A stretch of DNA of 64,000 nt from Pleomorphomonas carboxyditropha. GTDB taxonomy: Bacteria; Pseudomonadota; Alphaproteobacteria; Rhizobiales; Pleomorphomonadaceae. The translations under genes were made by a program, and so were the position numbers. The first letter of the stretch is position 1, and every line of letters begins with the position of its first letter. This document shows, piece after piece, positions 5,204-56,490 of the stretch. Under the pieces are notes generated by a model, which was not told the DNA's origin, searched no databases, and saw only the letters and a list, made by a program, of their open reading frames with translations. The stretch is taken from positions 62,001 to 126,000 of the forward strand of contig NZ_NQVN01000014.1 of NCBI RefSeq assembly GCF_002770725.1, written 5' to 3'.

Positions 5204-6241
5204 ATGGATGCGGATATGGAGCGGCCGACGCTCGACGAGGTGGCCCGGCTGGCCGGGGTGTCCAAGGCGACCGCATCCAAGGTTCTCAACCATCGCCGCT
5301 ATGTTTCCGAGGACACCCGGCGGCGCGTCGAGGAGGCGATCGGCCGGCTCGGCTACGTGCCGACCACGGGACCGCGAGACGCGGCATCCCTGCGGGCGGT
5401 CAACGTCGTGTTCGATACGCTGGCCAACGTCTATTCGGCGCAGGTTCTGAGCGGCATCGTCGGCGCCGCGCGTGCCCAGGATGTGGAAGTGCTGGTCGAT
5501 GCGCTCGACCCGGCGGCCGGCGACGCCGGCGGGCCGCTGTCGGCGAGCTGGATCAGGCGCCTGGCGACGCACGGCCGGGCCGGCGTCATCGTGGTGACGG
5601 CCGAGCTCACCGCCGGGCAGCGCGCGCAGATGCGCGCGGCCGGGCTGAGCGTCGTGGTGATCGATCCCCTCAATCCCCTCGACGACGAGGTCGTCTCCGT
5701 CGGATCGACCAACTTCGCCGGCGGCCTGCAGGCGACCAGGCACCTGCTCGATCTCGGCCACCGCCGGATCGCCTATGCCGGAGGCGTGTCCGTCTCGGCG
5801 CCGTCCCGCGAGCGGCTGCAGGGCTACCTCAGCGCGCTGTCCGACGCGGGCGTGGCGGCGGACCCCGGGCTCGTTCTCGAGCAGGGCTTCTCCTTCCGCG
5901 CCGGACGGGAGATGGCCGCCACGCTGTTCGCCAGGGAACGGCCACCGACGGCGATCTTCGCCGGCAGCGACGCGAGCGCGCTGGGTGTCCTGGAAGCGGC
6001 GCGTCGTCAGGGCCTTCGGATTCCCGACGATCTGTCCGTCGTCGGCTTCGACGACACCTATTCGGCCTTCACGACCGCGCCGCCGCTGACGACGGTACGC
6101 CAGCCCATCGAGGACATGGGGCGCGTGGCCCTGAGAACGCTCCTGCAGCAGGCGCGCGGCGAACGCCCGGACTCGCACCACATCCAGCTCGCCACGCAGC
6201 TCGTCGTCCGGGAATCGACGACGGCGCCGAGGCCGGAATAG
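5204..6241 (+). CDS. LacI-family transcriptional regulator
   Basis: A typical LacI/GalR repressor of 345 residues. The N-terminal helix-turn-helix reads TLDEVARLAGVSKATASKVLN, with a hinge helix at about 50-60. A periplasmic-binding-protein-like sugar domain follows, with conserved pieces FAGSDASALGVLEA and IPDDLSVVGFDD. The ATG is preceded by AAAGGAG. It is divergent from the GH120 beta-xylosidase, so xylose or a xylo-oligosaccharide is the likely inducer. This is inferred from the neighbour, since the binding pocket cannot be read from sequence by eye. A hairpin terminator follows the gene. Confidence 0.92.
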   Translation: MDADMERPTLDEVARLAGVSKATASKVLNHRRYVSEDTRRRVEEAIGRLGYVPTTGPRDAASLRAVNVVFDTLANVYSAQVLSGIVGAARAQDVEVLVDALDPAAGDAGGPLSASWIRRLATHGRAGVIVVTAELTAGQRAQMRAAGLSVVVIDPLNPLDDEVVSVGSTNFAGGLQATRHLLDLGHRRIAYAGGVSVSAPSRERLQGYLSALSDAGVAADPGLVLEQGFSFRAGREMAATLFARERPPTAIFAGSDASALGVLEAARRQGLRIPDDLSVVGFDDTYSAFTTAPPLTTVRQPIEDMGRVALRTLLQQARGERPDSHHIQLATQLVVRESTTAPRPE

Positions 6242-9690: not shown

Positions 9691-10284
9691 TCAGGCTTCG
9701 AGAACACCCTTGGTCGACGGCACGCGGCCGCCCTGGGCCGGATCGACGGCAACGGCGAAACGCAGGGCGCGGGCCAGCGCCTTAAAGCAGCTCTCGGCGA
9801 TATGGTGATCGTTCGATCCGTAGAAGGTCTCGACGTGCAGCGTCAGGCCGGCCTGCATGGCGAAGGCGCGAAACCATTCCTCGACGAGCTGGGTATCGAA
9901 GCTGCCGATCTTCGGCGCGTGGAAGCTGGTGCGAAAGACCAGACAGGGCCGGCCGGAGATGTCGACGACGACGCGGGACAGCGCCTCGTCGAGCGGCAAG
10001 GTCACGTCGGCATAGCGGGTGATGCCGGCCTTGTCGCCGAGCGCCTTGCGAAAGCACTGGCCGAGCGCGATGCCGACGTCCTCGACGGTGTGGTGGTCGT
10101 CGATATGGAGGTCGCCCTTCGCCTTGACCTCGAGATCGATCAGGCCATGGCGGGCGATCTGCGTCAGCATGTGGTCGAAGAAGCCGACACCGGTGGAGAT
10201 GTCGGCCTCGCCGCGACCGTCGAGGTCGAGGCGGACGGAGATCTCGGTTTCGCGGGTCGAGCGGCTGAGGCTGGCCGTGCGCAT
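9691..10284 (-). CDS. hisB: Imidazoleglycerol-phosphate dehydratase
   Basis: HisB of the monofunctional type, 197 residues, dehydrates imidazole glycerol phosphate to imidazole acetol phosphate in histidine synthesis. The metal-binding motifs of the family are intact: [14 protein letters not shown] near 33, [11 protein letters not shown] near 62, and [17 protein letters not shown] near 160. It appears to be the first gene of the operon hisB-DUF2628-hisH-hisA on the minus strand. It is divergent from an efflux transporter across about 267 bp. Confidence 0.97.
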
Positions 10285-23342: not shown

Positions 23343-23807
23343 ATGGATCTGAGCGACCTCCTGGTGATCGACGCAATCCTGCCGCGGCTCAAGTCCGCCA
23401 ACAAGAAGCAGGCATTGCAGGAGATGGCCGCCAAGGCCGCGGCTCTCACCGGACGCGACGAACGCGACATCTTCGAGACGCTGATGCAGCGCGAGAAGCT
23501 CGGTTCGACCGGCGTGGGCCACGGTGTCGCCATCCCGCACGGCAAGCTGGCCGGTCTCGACCGGCTGGTCGGCGTCTTCGCGCTCCTGGAACGACCGATC
23601 GATTTCGATTCGCTCGACGGCGAGCCTGTCGACGTGATGTTCCTGTTGCTGGCGCCGGAAAGCGCCGGCGCCGATCACCTGAAGGCGCTGGCCCGCATCG
23701 CCCGCGTCCTGCGCGACGACGAGACGGCGGCCAAGCTCAGGGCAGCCGACGACGCGGCGGCGATGTACGCGCTGCTCACCGAGAACGTCCGCTCCGACGC
23801 CGCCTGA
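23343..23807 (+). CDS. ptsN: PTS IIA-like nitrogen regulatory protein PtsN (EIIA-Ntr)
   Basis: EIIA-Ntr, 154 residues, is the terminal phospho-acceptor of the nitrogen phosphotransferase chain (PtsP, Npr, PtsN). The phosphorylated His is in VAIPHGKL near residue 66, with the second active-site His in the same fold. It regulates potassium transport, PHB and nitrogen-related functions by protein contacts, not sugar uptake. The ATG at 23343 gives the usual family start, while a longer frame from 23292 does not match it. A terminator hairpin begins inside the stop codon. Confidence 0.95.
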   Translation: MDLSDLLVIDAILPRLKSANKKQALQEMAAKAAALTGRDERDIFETLMQREKLGSTGVGHGVAIPHGKLAGLDRLVGVFALLERPIDFDSLDGEPVDVMFLLLAPESAGADHLKALARIARVLRDDETAAKLRAADDAAAMYALLTENVRSDAA

Positions 23808-23834
23808 AGCCGCAGAGCGGCTTCAGACTTTTTT
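23806..23834 (+). terminator. Intrinsic terminator overlapping the ptsN stop codon
   Basis: Perfect 8-bp arms GAAGCCGC and GCGGCTTC on an AGA loop are followed by AGAC and six T residues. The left arm uses the last two bases of the TGA stop. Confidence 0.8.
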
Positions 23835-23837
23835 CCC

Positions 23838-23964
23838 GCCTCAGGCGCCGGCGGGCCTCCGGCCCTTAGGCTTCCGCTCCGCTTTCCGTCTTTCGGGGCT
23901 TCGTCCCGAAAGACCCGCTCCGCGCGGCGCCAGTCGGCGCCGGAAGCCGCCCCGGGGCGGCTTC
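23838..23964 (+). repeat. Copy A of a hairpin-rich intergenic repeat (about 126 bp)
   Basis: A full-length copy of a repeat seen again at 32688, 53118, 54398 and 54534. It opens with GCCTCAG and a CGCCGGCG palindrome, then GGCCTCCGGCC. The core is a perfect 10-bp-stem hairpin at 23888-23914 (GTCTTTCGGG, loop GCTTCGT, CCCGAAAGAC), followed by CGCGCGGCGCC and GGCGCCGGAAGCCGC, and it closes with a GAAGCCGCCCC/GGGGCGGCTTC hairpin. It contains no coding potential of its own and lies between ptsN and mmcB. Confidence 0.85.
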
Positions 23965-32687: not shown

Positions 32688-32800
32688 GCCTCAGTCGCCG
32701 GCGGGCCTCCGGCTCTTGGCTTTCGCTCCGCTTTCCATCTTTCGGGGCTTCGCCACGAAAGACTCGCTTCGCGCGGCGCCGCTTGGCGCCGGAAGTGGTT
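32688..32800 (+). repeat. Copy B1 of the intergenic repeat (diverged)
   Basis: It begins GCCTCAGTCGCCGGCGGGCC and keeps the order of elements seen in copy A, but the central hairpin is damaged (ATCTTTCGGG against CACGAAAGAC). The copy breaks off after GGCGCCGGAAG, without the terminal hairpin. It lies between the convergent irr and GntR genes. Confidence 0.8.
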
Positions 32801-32809
32801 TTTACTTCG

Positions 32810-32885
32810 GCCTCAGTGGCCGGCGAGCCTTCGGTTCTTGGCTTTCGCGCTCCTCGCGGGCGCCGCAAGCCGCTCCGCGGCTTCG
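32810..32885 (+). repeat. Copy B2 of the intergenic repeat (internally deleted)
   Basis: A second, shorter copy directly after B1. It starts at GCCTCAGTGGCCGGCG, keeps the TTGGCTTTCGC segment, lacks the central hairpin and ends in a GCCGCTCCGCGGC hairpin corresponding to the tail. Confidence 0.7.
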
Positions 32886-52825: not shown

Positions 52826-53385
52826 GGTCGTATCCTTAAAATGGTAGTCGCCCGCCGTCTGGCGGGACGAATTTCCGGAAAGCTGGAAGGGATGTCGCGC
52901 GGCGCCGGTCGTCTCGAAAGATCCGGCGTTAGGGCCTCACGGCCAGCGCGCGACGAGGCGGAACCGTGAGATCAATATCCCGCGAGGGGATAGATCCTGC
53001 AAAGCACTCGGAGAAGGTTGAGGCGCGGTTCCATGATCGGAAAGATCGGCATTTGTTCCGCCAAAGTCAAGCCGAGGTTGTTTTCCGCCTCAGCCGCCGG
53101 TGGGTGGTTTCCTGCTCGCCTCAGGCGCCGGCGGGCCTTTGGCCCTTGCGTTTTGCAAATGAGATAAGATCAGCGCGTCACGGGGCGGGGCGCCTTCCGC
53201 CCCGTGTCCCATCCGAGAGACCGATCCGCTCCGATGCTAGGCAAGGGGCATATATAGGGCTCCGTCCGTACGGCGCCGATCAGTTACCGGCGTCGATGCC
53301 GGGCAGGCTGCTTTCCTCCGCCCAGGTTTTTTGCGCGGGCATCGCCTGGCGCCGGAAGCCGTCAGCGGCGGCCTCCTGTGGTCCC
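52826..53385. other. 560-bp intergenic region between rnk and recR
   Basis: No protein gene is convincing. It holds truncated pieces of the intergenic repeat at 53087-53150, a perfect 10-bp hairpin at 53179-53206 (CACGGGGCGG/CCGCCCCGTG), and a piece at 53348-53361 identical to the GGCGCCGGAAGCCG part of the repeat tail. The 200 bp between the two repeat pieces is unassigned and could hold a small RNA. Confidence 0.5.
53087..53150 (+). repeat. Copy C of the intergenic repeat (5' fragments)
   Basis: A short piece, GCCTCAGCCGCCGGTGGG, then a spacer GTGGTTTCCTGCTC, then GCCTCAGGCGCCGGCGGGCC TTTGGCCCTTGCG. This is the same partial-then-full arrangement as at 54369-54430, but the copy stops before the central hairpin. 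A tail-like piece appears at 53348. Confidence 0.75.
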
Positions 53386-54019: not shown

Positions 54020-54346
54020 TCAGAAGGGCAGCTTGAAGCCCGGCGGCAGCGGCAGGTTGCCGGTTACCGCCTGCATGCGCTCGGCGACCAGACCATCGAC
54101 ATGCGCCCGGGCGTCCGTGAAGGCGGCGACGATCAGATCCTCGACGATCTCGGCCTCCTCGGGCTTCAGGAGCGAGGGATCGATGCGAAGCGCCTTGATC
54201 TCGCCTTTGCCGGTAACGGTGACCGAGACGAGGCCGCCGCCGGACGTGCCGGTCGCTTCGATCCGGGCAATCTCTTCCTGCGCCTCGGCCATGCGAGCCT
54301 GAAGCGCCTGCGCTTCCTTCATCATCTTGCCGATGTCGCCGAACAT
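54020..54346 (-). CDS. YbaB/EbfC family nucleoid-associated protein
   Basis: A 108-residue DNA-binding protein. It begins [29 protein letters not shown] (helix), then has [19 protein letters not shown] (beta strands), and ends [12 protein letters not shown], typical for the family. It binds DNA as a tweezers-like dimer, and its place between dnaX and recR is widely conserved. Here the gap to dnaX is unusually large (347 bp) because two copies of an intergenic repeat lie in it. Confidence 0.95.
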
Positions 54347-54368
54347 GGATTTTCTCCTTTTATTTCTG

Positions 54369-54388
54369 GCCTCAGTCGCCGGCGGGTG
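54369..54388 (+). repeat. Partial 5' fragment of the intergenic repeat
   Basis: GCCTCAGTCGCCGGCGGG is the first 18 bases of the repeat, followed by GTGGTTTTTCTC and then the full copy D1. The same fragment-plus-spacer is seen at 53087. Confidence 0.7.
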
Positions 54389-54397
54389 GTTTTTCTC

Positions 54398-54523
54398 GCC
54401 TCAGGCGCCGGCGGGCCTGCCGGCCCTTGGCTTTACGCTCCGCTTTTCGTCTTTCGGGGCTTCGTCCCGAAAGACCCGCTCCGCGCGGCGCCGCTTGGCG
54501 CCGGAAGCCGCTTCACGCGGCTT
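54398..54523 (+). repeat. Copy D1 of the intergenic repeat
   Basis: A full-length copy, almost identical to D2 with one inserted base in the GGCCTGCCGGCC segment. Its central perfect hairpin is at 54449-54475. It ends GAAGCCGCTTCACGCGGCTT. Confidence 0.9.
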
Positions 54524-54533
54524 GTTGTTCTTT

Positions 54534-54659
54534 GCCTCAGTCGCCGGCGGGCCTCCGGCCCTTGGCTTTACGCTCCGCTTTTCGTCTTTCGGGGCTTCGT
54601 CCCGAAAGACCCGCTCCGCGCGGCGCCGCTTGGCGCCGGAAGCCGCTTCACGCGGCTTC
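54534..54659 (+). repeat. Copy D2 of the intergenic repeat
   Basis: A 126-bp copy in direct tandem with D1, separated by a 10-base spacer. Its central hairpin GTCTTTCGGG/CCCGAAAGAC is at 54584-54610, with a terminal GAAGCCGC/GCGGCTTC hairpin. It ends 34 bp from the dnaX stop codon. Confidence 0.9.
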
Positions 54660-54693
54660 ATCTCCGCTTCCGGCCTTCCTTGTCAACGGCGTC

Positions 54694-56490
54694 TCAATCG
54701 TCGAAGTCGCCGAGGCCGGGATCGGGCATCTCGTCGATGAAGCCCTCGGTCCAGTCGCCGGTGTCCTCGAAGGTGGGGCCGCCGGGCGCCGGACCGGCCG
54801 ACGGCGGCGCCTCCGGCTCGTCGGCGAACTTGACATCGACGATCTCGGCGCCGGGAAACAGGCGGAAGATGGCGGCGACCACCGGATCGGCGAGCGCGTC
54901 GTCGACGGCTTCGCGGCGGCGCGCCTCGCGTGTTTCGGCAATGGTCGGCCGGCCCTCTTCCCGCGAGATGGCGACGATCCAGCGGCGGCCGGTCCAGCCG
55001 GACAGCTTGCGGCCGATCTCGCCGGCAAGGCCGGGGTTGGCGCCCTCGACGGGAGAGAACTCGATGCGCCCGTCCTCGAAGCGCACGAGGCGGACGTGCC
55101 GCTCCAGCGCGAACTTGAGGCCGATGTCGCGGTTACTTTCGGCAAGCGCCACCACCGCCTCGAAACTGTCGAGGCGCGGGCCTGCCGCGGCCTCCGGCTC
55201 GGCGCGGCGAGCGGCGACGCCGGCAAAGCCGTTGGCGGCGCGGGCGCGCGGCCCGTCGCCCCCGCCCGAGGAGCCGCCGGCCGGCGGGGTCAGCCCCGGA
55301 AAGCTGCCGTCCTTCAGCATTCTGAGCGCCTCGTCGGGCGTCGGCAGATCGGCGGCATAGGCGAGGCGGACGAGCACCATCTCGGCGGCCGGCAACGGCC
55401 GTGGAGCGGTCTGCACCTCCTGGATGCCCTTGAGCAGCAACTGCCAGGTGCGGGAAAGCACGCGCACCGACAGTTTTTCGGCAAAGTCGCGGCCGCGCGT
55501 CCACTCGGCCTCGGTGAGCGACAGGTCGGCCGCCCCTTCCGGCAGGTGCTTGAGCCGCGTCACCAGGTGGACGAAGGCGGCGAGATCGGACAGCACGGCC
55601 GCCGGATCGGCACCGGTGTCATACTGGTCGGCAAGAATCGCCAGCGCACCGGCGACGTCGCCCTTCATCACCGCCTCGAACAGGTCGACGACGCGCACCC
55701 GGTCGGCGAGGCCGAGCATGCCGCGCACCGCATCGGCCGACACATGGCCGCCGCCATGGGCGATCGCCTGATCGAGGATGGTGAGGCTGTCGCGCACCGA
55801 GCCCTCGGCGGCGCGGGCGATCAAGGCCACCGCCTCGGGGTCGGCGGTGACCTTCTCGGCGGCGATAATGCGCTCGATATGGGCGGCGAGCTCGCCGGTC
55901 GGCACCCGGCGCAGGTCGAAGCGCTGGCAGCGCGACAGCACCGTGATCGGCACCTTGCGGATCTCGGTGGTGGCGAAGACGAACTTGACGTGCTCGGGCG
56001 GCTCTTCCAGCGTCTTCAGGAGCGCATTGAAGGCCTGCGTCGACAGCATGTGCACTTCGTCGATGATGTAGACCTTGTAGCGGGCCGACACCGGCTTGTA
56101 GCGGGCCGCCTCGATGATGTCGCGCACGTCGTCGACGCCGGTGTGCGAGGCGGCGTCCATCTCGATGACGTCGACGTGCCGGCCCTCCATGATGGTGCGG
56201 CAATGGGTGCCCTCGCGATCCATGTGCACGGTGGGACGGTCGATCTCGCCGGGAATCTCGTAGTTGAGGGCGCGGGCGAGAATGCGGGCGGTGGTGGTCT
56301 TGCCGACGCCGCGCACGCCGGTCAGCATCCACCCTTGCGCGATGCGGCCGGTGTCGAAGGCGTTCTCGAGCGTGCGCACCATGGCGCCATGGCCGATCAG
56401 GTCGGCGAAGCTCTGCGGACGATACTTGCGGGCTAGGACCCGATAGGGCGAGGCGGCCGTCTGATCGGCGGGCGTCAGAGTGTCCGGCAT
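54694..56490 (-). CDS. dnaX: DNA polymerase III subunit gamma/tau
   Basis: DnaX, 598 residues, is the clamp-loader ATPase of the replicase. Walker A is in GVRGVGKTTTARILARALNY near 53, Walker B in YIIDEVHMLS near 135, sensor 1 in FVFATTEIRKVP, and the Arg finger region in SRCQRFDLRR. The zinc-binding Cys of E. coli DnaX are reduced to a single GTHCRTIMEG, as in other rhizobia. The C-terminal tau domain from about 380 is present, with a Gly-rich linker (GGSSGGGDGP). It starts at the ATG at 56490, shortly after the SRP RNA gene on the same strand. Confidence 0.96.
   Translation of the reverse strand: MPDTLTPADQTAASPYRVLARKYRPQSFADLIGHGAMVRTLENAFDTGRIAQGWMLTGVRGVGKTTTARILARALNYEIPGEIDRPTVHMDREGTHCRTIMEGRHVDVIEMDAASHTGVDDVRDIIEAARYKPVSARYKVYIIDEVHMLSTQAFNALLKTLEEPPEHVKFVFATTEIRKVPITVLSRCQRFDLRRVPTGELAAHIERIIAAEKVTADPEAVALIARAAEGSVRDSLTILDQAIAHGGGHVSADAVRGMLGLADRVRVVDLFEAVMKGDVAGALAILADQYDTGADPAAVLSDLAAFVHLVTRLKHLPEGAADLSLTEAEWTRGRDFAEKLSVRVLSRTWQLLLKGIQEVQTAPRPLPAAEMVLVRLAYAADLPTPDEALRMLKDGSFPGLTPPAGGSSGGGDGPRARAANGFAGVAARRAEPEAAAGPRLDSFEAVVALAESNRDIGLKFALERHVRLVRFEDGRIEFSPVEGANPGLAGEIGRKLSGWTGRRWIVAISREEGRPTIAETREARRREAVDDALADPVVAAIFRLFPGAEIVDVKFADEPEAPPSAGPAPGGPTFEDTGDWTEGFIDEMPDPGLGDFDD

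Follow-up and report, generated by a model that had tools for sequence, protein, structure and literature searches.

A lineage-specific family of intergenic hairpin repeats in Pleomorphomonas with a predominant direction along the chromosome

Short hairpin repeats are widespread in bacteria, and little is understood of how they propagate, remain similar to one another and influence genes. Rhizobia carry the RIME or intergenic mosaic elements, mosaic palindromes of about 100 bp located between genes. REP/BIME elements are described as palindromic, extragenic, multicopy and clustered, and as associated with RAYT transposases (PMC2817692), with a REP length of 20 to 40 bp (PMC3733652). Among the Alphaproteobacteria, Br-REP1 of Bradyrhizobium is presented as an intergenic element with three palindromes or stem-loops, found in 3'-UTRs, with a core at ca. 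200 sites and an abundance that differs strongly among related species (PMC5082802), and Bru-RS of Brucella as a 103-to-105-bp intergenic stem-loop family with tens of copies (PMC2267715). The BRE of betaproteobacteria are reported as usually intergenic elements of ca. 90 bp, some complete and some partial, with a maximum of 29 copies in one genome (PMC3110155).

The repeat described here comes from Pleomorphomonas, an alphaproteobacterial genus of the order Hyphomicrobiales. The window, i.e., the whole stretch of DNA analyzed, comprises 64,000 nucleotides (contig C5:62001-126000) of a 5.88-Mb draft genome, referred to below as the source genome. The printed core of Br-REP1, CCGGAATCTCGAGATTCCGG, had no match in the window at up to three mismatches, ruling out identity with that element. 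Among the top-ranked open-licence papers of our literature searches, none was found to describe this repeat or any chromosome-wide co-oriented intergenic repeat.

Copies in the window and structure of the unit

The copies and coordinates of the original prediction were right, as indicated by repeat grouping and by motif counts far above those in shuffled sequences. The features of the window are as follows:

23838..23964, + strand: full-length unit between a ptsN-like gene and mmcB (repeat grouping, covariance model)
32688..32796, + strand: unit without the terminal hairpin (aligned copies, covariance model)
32810..32884, + strand: short-form unit, in tandem, between fur-like and gntR-like genes (covariance model)
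53087..53117, + strand: head-only mini unit (repeat grouping, head motif)
53118..53155, + strand: truncated unit (5' part) between an rnk/GreA-like gene and recR
54369..54397, + strand: head-only mini unit of 29 nt (GCCTCAGTCGCCGGCGGG plus T-rich sequence) at the start of the dnaX-ybaB array (repeat grouping, head motif)
54398..54523, + strand: full-length unit (BLAST, repeat grouping, covariance model)
54524..54533, + strand: T-rich spacer (gttgttcttt) of the next unit, with a terminator-like score together with the preceding hairpin
54534..54659, + strand: full-length reference unit (BLAST, fold, covariance model)
54543..54566, + strand: hairpin 1 of the reference unit (single-sequence fold, covariation)
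54584..54610, + strand: hairpin 2, central, exchangeable and missing in the short form (fold, aligned copies, covariation)
54621..54638, + strand: hairpin 3, a GGCGCC pair (fold, covariation)
54639..54659, + strand: hairpin 4, GAAGCCGC/GCGGCTTC (fold, covariation)

One 113-nt repeat family grouped the starts 23838, 32687, 54399 and 54534; with the 23838 copy as reference, the identities of the last three are 72, 81 and 92%. The head motif matched nine times in the window at up to three mismatches (0.37 expected in shuffles); eight of these matches, every one on the + strand, mark heads of the family, and the one at 5516 looks like chance. For the central hairpin, there were four matches against 0.00 expected. 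All copies had been predicted to share the same parts, which is too strong: at 32688 the central stem is imperfect, and four copies (53087, 53118, 54369 and 32810) have only the head, are truncated or represent the short form. Besides its two full units, the array includes the head-only unit at 54369-54397. The array lies antisense between dnaX and ybaB, and a hairpin followed by a T-run (23806-23834) precedes the unit at 23838. Genes were called with a simple codon-usage caller, and their families were assigned separately.

The repeat unit of ca. 126 bp begins with a T-rich tract, followed by GCCTCAG, hairpin 1 (GCCGGCGGGCC...), the exchangeable hairpin 2 and hairpins 3 and 4. Besides this long form there are a short one of ca. 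86 bp, without the central hairpin, and minis that are head-only or head-plus-tail; units also occur in tandem. In the source genome, the 14 nt upstream of units are 52% T, compared to 19% further up, and at least six T's are found in this tract at 23 of 28 sites. At one shared locus (1.316 Mb in G012, the complete genome described below; L201:2456-2560) the conserved T-tract and GCCTCAG are followed by another hairpin, CCGCTGGTCGG...CCGACCAACGG, which may point to a wider superfamily that has the head alone in common.

The fold of the reference unit had a z-score of -4.06. In 42 long copies from the source and related genomes, 94.2% of the pair cells were standard pairs, and 15 of 37 pairs had changed on both sides, compared to 4.1 in shuffles, most of this covariation being concentrated in the central hairpin (8 of its 12 pairs). 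These counts refer to the hairpins of the single-sequence fold, with weak multiloop pairs dropped and an unfitted alignment; the consensus of RNAalifold itself, in which pairing was long-range and the covariation term small, was set aside in favor of this structure. G-U cells outnumbered A-C cells (118 versus 28) because of three G-U-rich pairs, without which the two are about equal (24 versus 27), so that covariation singles out neither strand as RNA. The covariation thus does not establish the structural RNA of the original prediction.

We consider it quite unlikely that the units are one-sense structured RNAs, a family of sRNAs acting in trans or in cis and transcribed from the element strand. 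The fold score, the covarying pairs and the three G-U-rich pairs in the sense reading would suit such RNAs, but the balance in the remaining cells is that of a palindrome kept in DNA or on both strands, the units at one locus vary between species, and a search for sigma-70-type promoters found no such site in 54340-54700. No Rfam family reached the gathering score anywhere in the window, and the array, compared at E values up to 1, gave one chance-level match below the cutoff. A known RNA family was ruled out on these grounds, in agreement with the initial impression that the repeat has no familiar name.

Copy number, range and gene context

The source genome contains at least 42 covariance-model matches (E value of 0.001; 150 of 12161 first-look candidates scored) and, with 40 of 102 candidates scored, at least 64 BLAST matches, of which many cover part-units; these matches occupy ca. 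30 places. The hundreds per genome that had been extrapolated were not borne out. The model, which here too scored part of the first-look candidates, matched at least 19 times in G012, at least 18 in G002 and 11 to 28 times (lower bounds) in five further members of the genus. With a stricter filter, it detected the family in 13 of 14 Pleomorphomonas genomes (the source included) and in 0 of 46 outside the genus. Two members were poor in the repeat, with no model match in G006 and three in G007. BLAST matched all 14 genomes of the genus (G006 once and G007 twice), none of six from other genera of the same family and one of 20 from other families (G025, E value of 7.8e-4), a match that the model did not repeat. 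Among the genomes searched, the family is limited to the genus. Exact matches to a 35-position pattern fell in 12 stretches, 11 from Pleomorphomonas and one from an unclassified proteobacterial MAG. Plasmids and phages gave no family match and viral contigs no exact pattern match, ruling out plasmid, phage or viral cargo.

None of the listed sites lies inside a gene predicted by the codon-usage caller. In the source genome, 36 site rows (a few of them weak or palindrome-mirrored matches) were divided, at up to 60 bp, into 10 that abut a same-strand stop codon, 12 that abut an opposite-strand stop and 14 that abut neither; the 18 rows of G012 were divided into 5, 7 and 6, respectively. Stops are abutted on both gene strands, and gene direction therefore does not set the direction of the element. 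Gene calls, covariation and the model bear out the view of an intergenic, REP-like structured repeat that encodes no protein.

These positions also bear on whether the units could be intrinsic terminators copied around the genome. Many sites follow stop codons, in arrays hairpin 4 is followed by a T-rich tract, and the array in the window has five terminator-like matches, all on the + strand, compared to 1.5 in shuffles. But single units carry their T-tract in front and none behind, and about half of the abutting genes are on the opposite strand (12 of 22 in the source genome and 7 of 12 in G012), where no T-run follows the hairpins. This makes a terminator family an improbable explanation.

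Shared loci, mobility and direction on the chromosome

Sites of G000, G004, G009, G003 and G013 were placed by flanking alignment on G012, which is complete in one contig of 5.476 Mb. Only profile matches with an E value of 0.001 or better entered the mapping, and placement required at least 80% identity and at least 1500 nt aligned, within 3 kb, a rule tightened after the first mapping had been seen. In total, 41 of 57 sites were placed; the 16 unplaced ones include the window copies 23838 and 32688. With a selection of species covered at any one locus, a hand count found 18 of the 24 placed loci to be shared by at least two species, and four loci occur in four species each, always in one direction. 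The flanks of G000 and G012 are 83.5 to 91% identical.

The individual copies keep no memory of their locus. In a comparison of 73 units from four genomes, in which pairs are not independent, the median identity of long units was 0.825 at the same locus across species and 0.811 at different loci (P = 0.11), and for short units the values were 0.882 and 0.881 (P = 0.42). Tandem neighbors were more alike (0.968 for long and 0.925 for short units). This comparison replaces an earlier one of best ortholog against best paralog, dropped because taking the best of many paralogs inflates the value. At one address, the number of units, the sequence of the central hairpin or the long or short form may change from one species to another (for example, at 2.69, 1.10 and 5.0 Mb). 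The absent locus memory can also reasonably be explained by rapid divergence up to a plateau set by structural limits; identity between units of different loci is barely higher within genomes than between them (0.826 versus 0.811 for long units and 0.885 versus 0.881 for short ones).

The original prediction had also suggested a non-autonomous mobile element, a view not borne out by the shared loci, by flanking duplications no commoner than expected or by the source genome, which has no Y1 transposase. At least 9 nt are shared by the flanks of 2 of 28 sites in the source genome, compared to 1.48 in shuffled pairings, which speaks against a general target duplication. A search for Y1 (RAYT-type, PF01797) transposases found none in the source genome and matches in 5 of 14 control genomes and in 3 of the 14 genomes of the genus; the REP-associated tyrosine transposase proposed as a check is missing from the source, and a RAYT-driven REP was ruled out.

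The strongest form of the mobile reading is a MITE- or REPIN-like element moved in trans by an unknown transposase, target-specific and fixed in orientation, so that the same sites were hit independently. We regard this as possible but rather doubtful. It would agree with a dispersed multicopy family, with the apparent differences in presence at some loci across species and with the absent locus memory, which fits repeated insertion. At one site, C74:143136 of G000 (also in G004), a sequence resembling ATCCTTWACGCCCCCTTAAACCGCC is present on either side of the unit, whereas G012 has one copy and no unit; this could be an insertion or a deletion. The two flanking copies are near-identical and ca. 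26 bp long, and the stretches concerned are L141 (near 9938-10058), L235 and L102 (near 5434). The flanking sequence contains TTAA-N7-TTAA or a one-base variant, which we take to be CtrA-box-like. Against mobility, apart from the missing duplications and the scarcity of the transposase, the unit ends are not the terminal inverted repeats of a MITE (GCCTCAG and GCGGCTTC are not complementary, as judged by eye in aligned copies), plasmids, phages and viral contigs yielded no matches, and the four loci found in four species each keep one direction.

The same orientation noted in the window extends far beyond it, with exceptions. In G012, all 30 BLAST matches listed (40 of 49 candidates scored), all 19 model matches and all 29 matches of a profile scan of both strands in 93 stretches (1.86 Mb in all, including 13 picked for their known copies) were on the + strand. 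A pattern scan gave 10 of 11 on + at up to two mismatches; at three mismatches it was near its backwards control (30 and 24 versus 20 and 17), and one family-like minus match appeared at 1122429. Within an array, the tandem units all point the same way, as observed in the window and for the listed arrays of G000, G012 and G002.

Across species, 35 of the 41 placed sites were forward. Together with the sites of G012 itself, 22 of 26 locus rows were forward (P = 5e-4). Three of these rows belong to a locus at 5.422 Mb, reversed in G000 and G003 and read in part as forward in G012; when this locus is entered a single time, as reversed, there are 21 forward and 3 reversed loci (P = 3e-4). A fourth reversed locus is probably C7:84891 of G009, which the rule did not place and whose neighboring stretch aligns in reverse near 0.62 to 0.63 Mb, giving 21 of 25 forward (P = 9e-4). 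Each of the three placed reversed loci has a forward locus nearby, at 17, 3 and 6 kb, closer than the spacing among forward loci themselves (one-sided P = 0.006 for these three, post hoc); for the probable fourth the distance is 68 kb, and with it P = 0.04. The first, looser mapping (24 forward, 5 reversed and 1 mixed of 30 loci) was replaced by the strict rule; its reversed rows at 1.192, 4.448 and 4.457 Mb were matches of only 68 to 71% identity, and its forward row at 0.371 Mb was a single 955-nt match.

The co-orientation is predominant on both replichores. Between 0.52 and 3.62 Mb of G012, 49 of 50 stretches have a positive GC skew, and outside this interval 34 of 43 have a negative one; the + copies are spread across both arms, so that direction does not switch with the replichore. 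An orientation imposed by replication, through insertion into the lagging-strand template, is for this reason very improbable: forward rows amount to 10 of 12 in the right arm and 12 of 14 in the left (Fisher P = 1.0). It would account for the agreement in direction of neighboring sites on draft contigs (50 of 58 pairs in seven genomes), pairs that are not independent because loci are common to several species.

The 18 sites of G012 crowd on the origin side (Kolmogorov-Smirnov P = 0.0014), which may be caused by the placement of core genes. On the terminus side, none of them lies in 1.16 to 2.6 Mb or 2.7 to 4.2 Mb.

A second repeat, a palindromic unit of ca. 150 bp (CTGCCCGAGGTCCTACGC ... GCGTAGGACCTCGGGCAG) with the leader YCGGCACGRCGAYCYATATA, was observed directly 3' of some family units:

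L123:10090-10314: second repeat beside a family unit
L126:10050-10259: second repeat beside a family unit
L132:8613-8841: second repeat beside a family unit
L135:10138-10357: second repeat beside a family unit
L143:7098-7302: second repeat beside a family unit

Its palindromic part is present elsewhere too. This asymmetric repeat was dropped as an orientation control because all seven genome pattern matches to its leader adjoin family units or part-units, on their 3' side and in the same direction.

Interpretation and comparison with known systems

We lean toward reading the family as a lineage-specific, REP-like 3'-flank hairpin repeat of Pleomorphomonas that occupies a few dozen old loci, often directly after a stop codon, and is homogenized between loci. 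Because hairpins form on both strands and units abut stops on both, we infer that in transcripts from either strand they might act like the 3'-UTR hairpins of REP/BIME elements, blocking 3' exonucleases and damping read-through. What counts against such a 3'-flank role is that 14 of 36 site rows in the source genome and 6 of 18 in G012 abut no stop. In addition, the array gave terminator-like matches for the + strand alone, although the opposite strand carries many of the adjacent genes.

Units would multiply by tandem duplication and deletion and could be exchanged between loci by recombination or gene conversion. Least certain is the step by which distant inverted copies would be lost, leaving one direction: recombination between such far-apart copies would invert the chromosome, and they might be purged for that reason. 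This idea was formed post hoc on the three reversed loci, and the probable fourth weakens it. Repeats this short are expected to recombine rarely, which counts against purging.

A more general rule can be proposed only tentatively, as something we find rather unlikely: that the repeat keeps its chromosomal addresses over species-level time, loses the sequence identity of each copy and points one way irrespective of replication, either through purging of inverted copies by constant recombination or through a laying-down process that reads the whole chromosome one way. To our knowledge, no described repeat follows a one-way, address-keeping, identity-losing rule. The interest of the family lies in this combination of fixed addresses, sequence turnover and a direction unexplained by replication, with the usual partner transposase missing in most genomes. 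If purging were the cause of the direction, such repeats would serve as a natural gauge both of ectopic recombination and of the selection acting on chromosome structure, and the one-way rule would be a visible footprint of inversion load.

The likeness to RIME is drawn from descriptions alone. The same is true of BRE, which belong to another bacterial class and for which the account cited describes no orientation rule (PMC3110155), and of Bru-RS, also an alphaproteobacterial intergenic stem-loop repeat and alike in kind (PMC2267715). Br-REP1 is another alphaproteobacterial intergenic hairpin repeat, with a shorter core and a different sequence, and the features given for it in the text cited do not include chromosome-wide orientation or loss of locus memory (PMC5082802). 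With REP/BIME elements associated with RAYT, the Pleomorphomonas repeat shares being palindromic, extragenic and multicopy (PMC2817692), but its unit is ca. 126 bp long rather than 20 to 40 bp (PMC3733652) and has no GTAG-type head. In addition, the units of its arrays point in one direction, whereas those of REP/BIME alternate, and its source genome has no Y1 transposase (PMC2817692). REP/BIME elements usually, though not strictly, exceed 100 copies per genome, compared to about 40 here (at least 42 by the model and at least 64 by BLAST). Given these differences in transposase, alternation and copy number, we do not class the repeat as REP/BIME, although it may work like one. The family itself is unnamed, but its kind is already known from alphaproteobacterial hairpin repeats such as Br-REP1 and Bru-RS.
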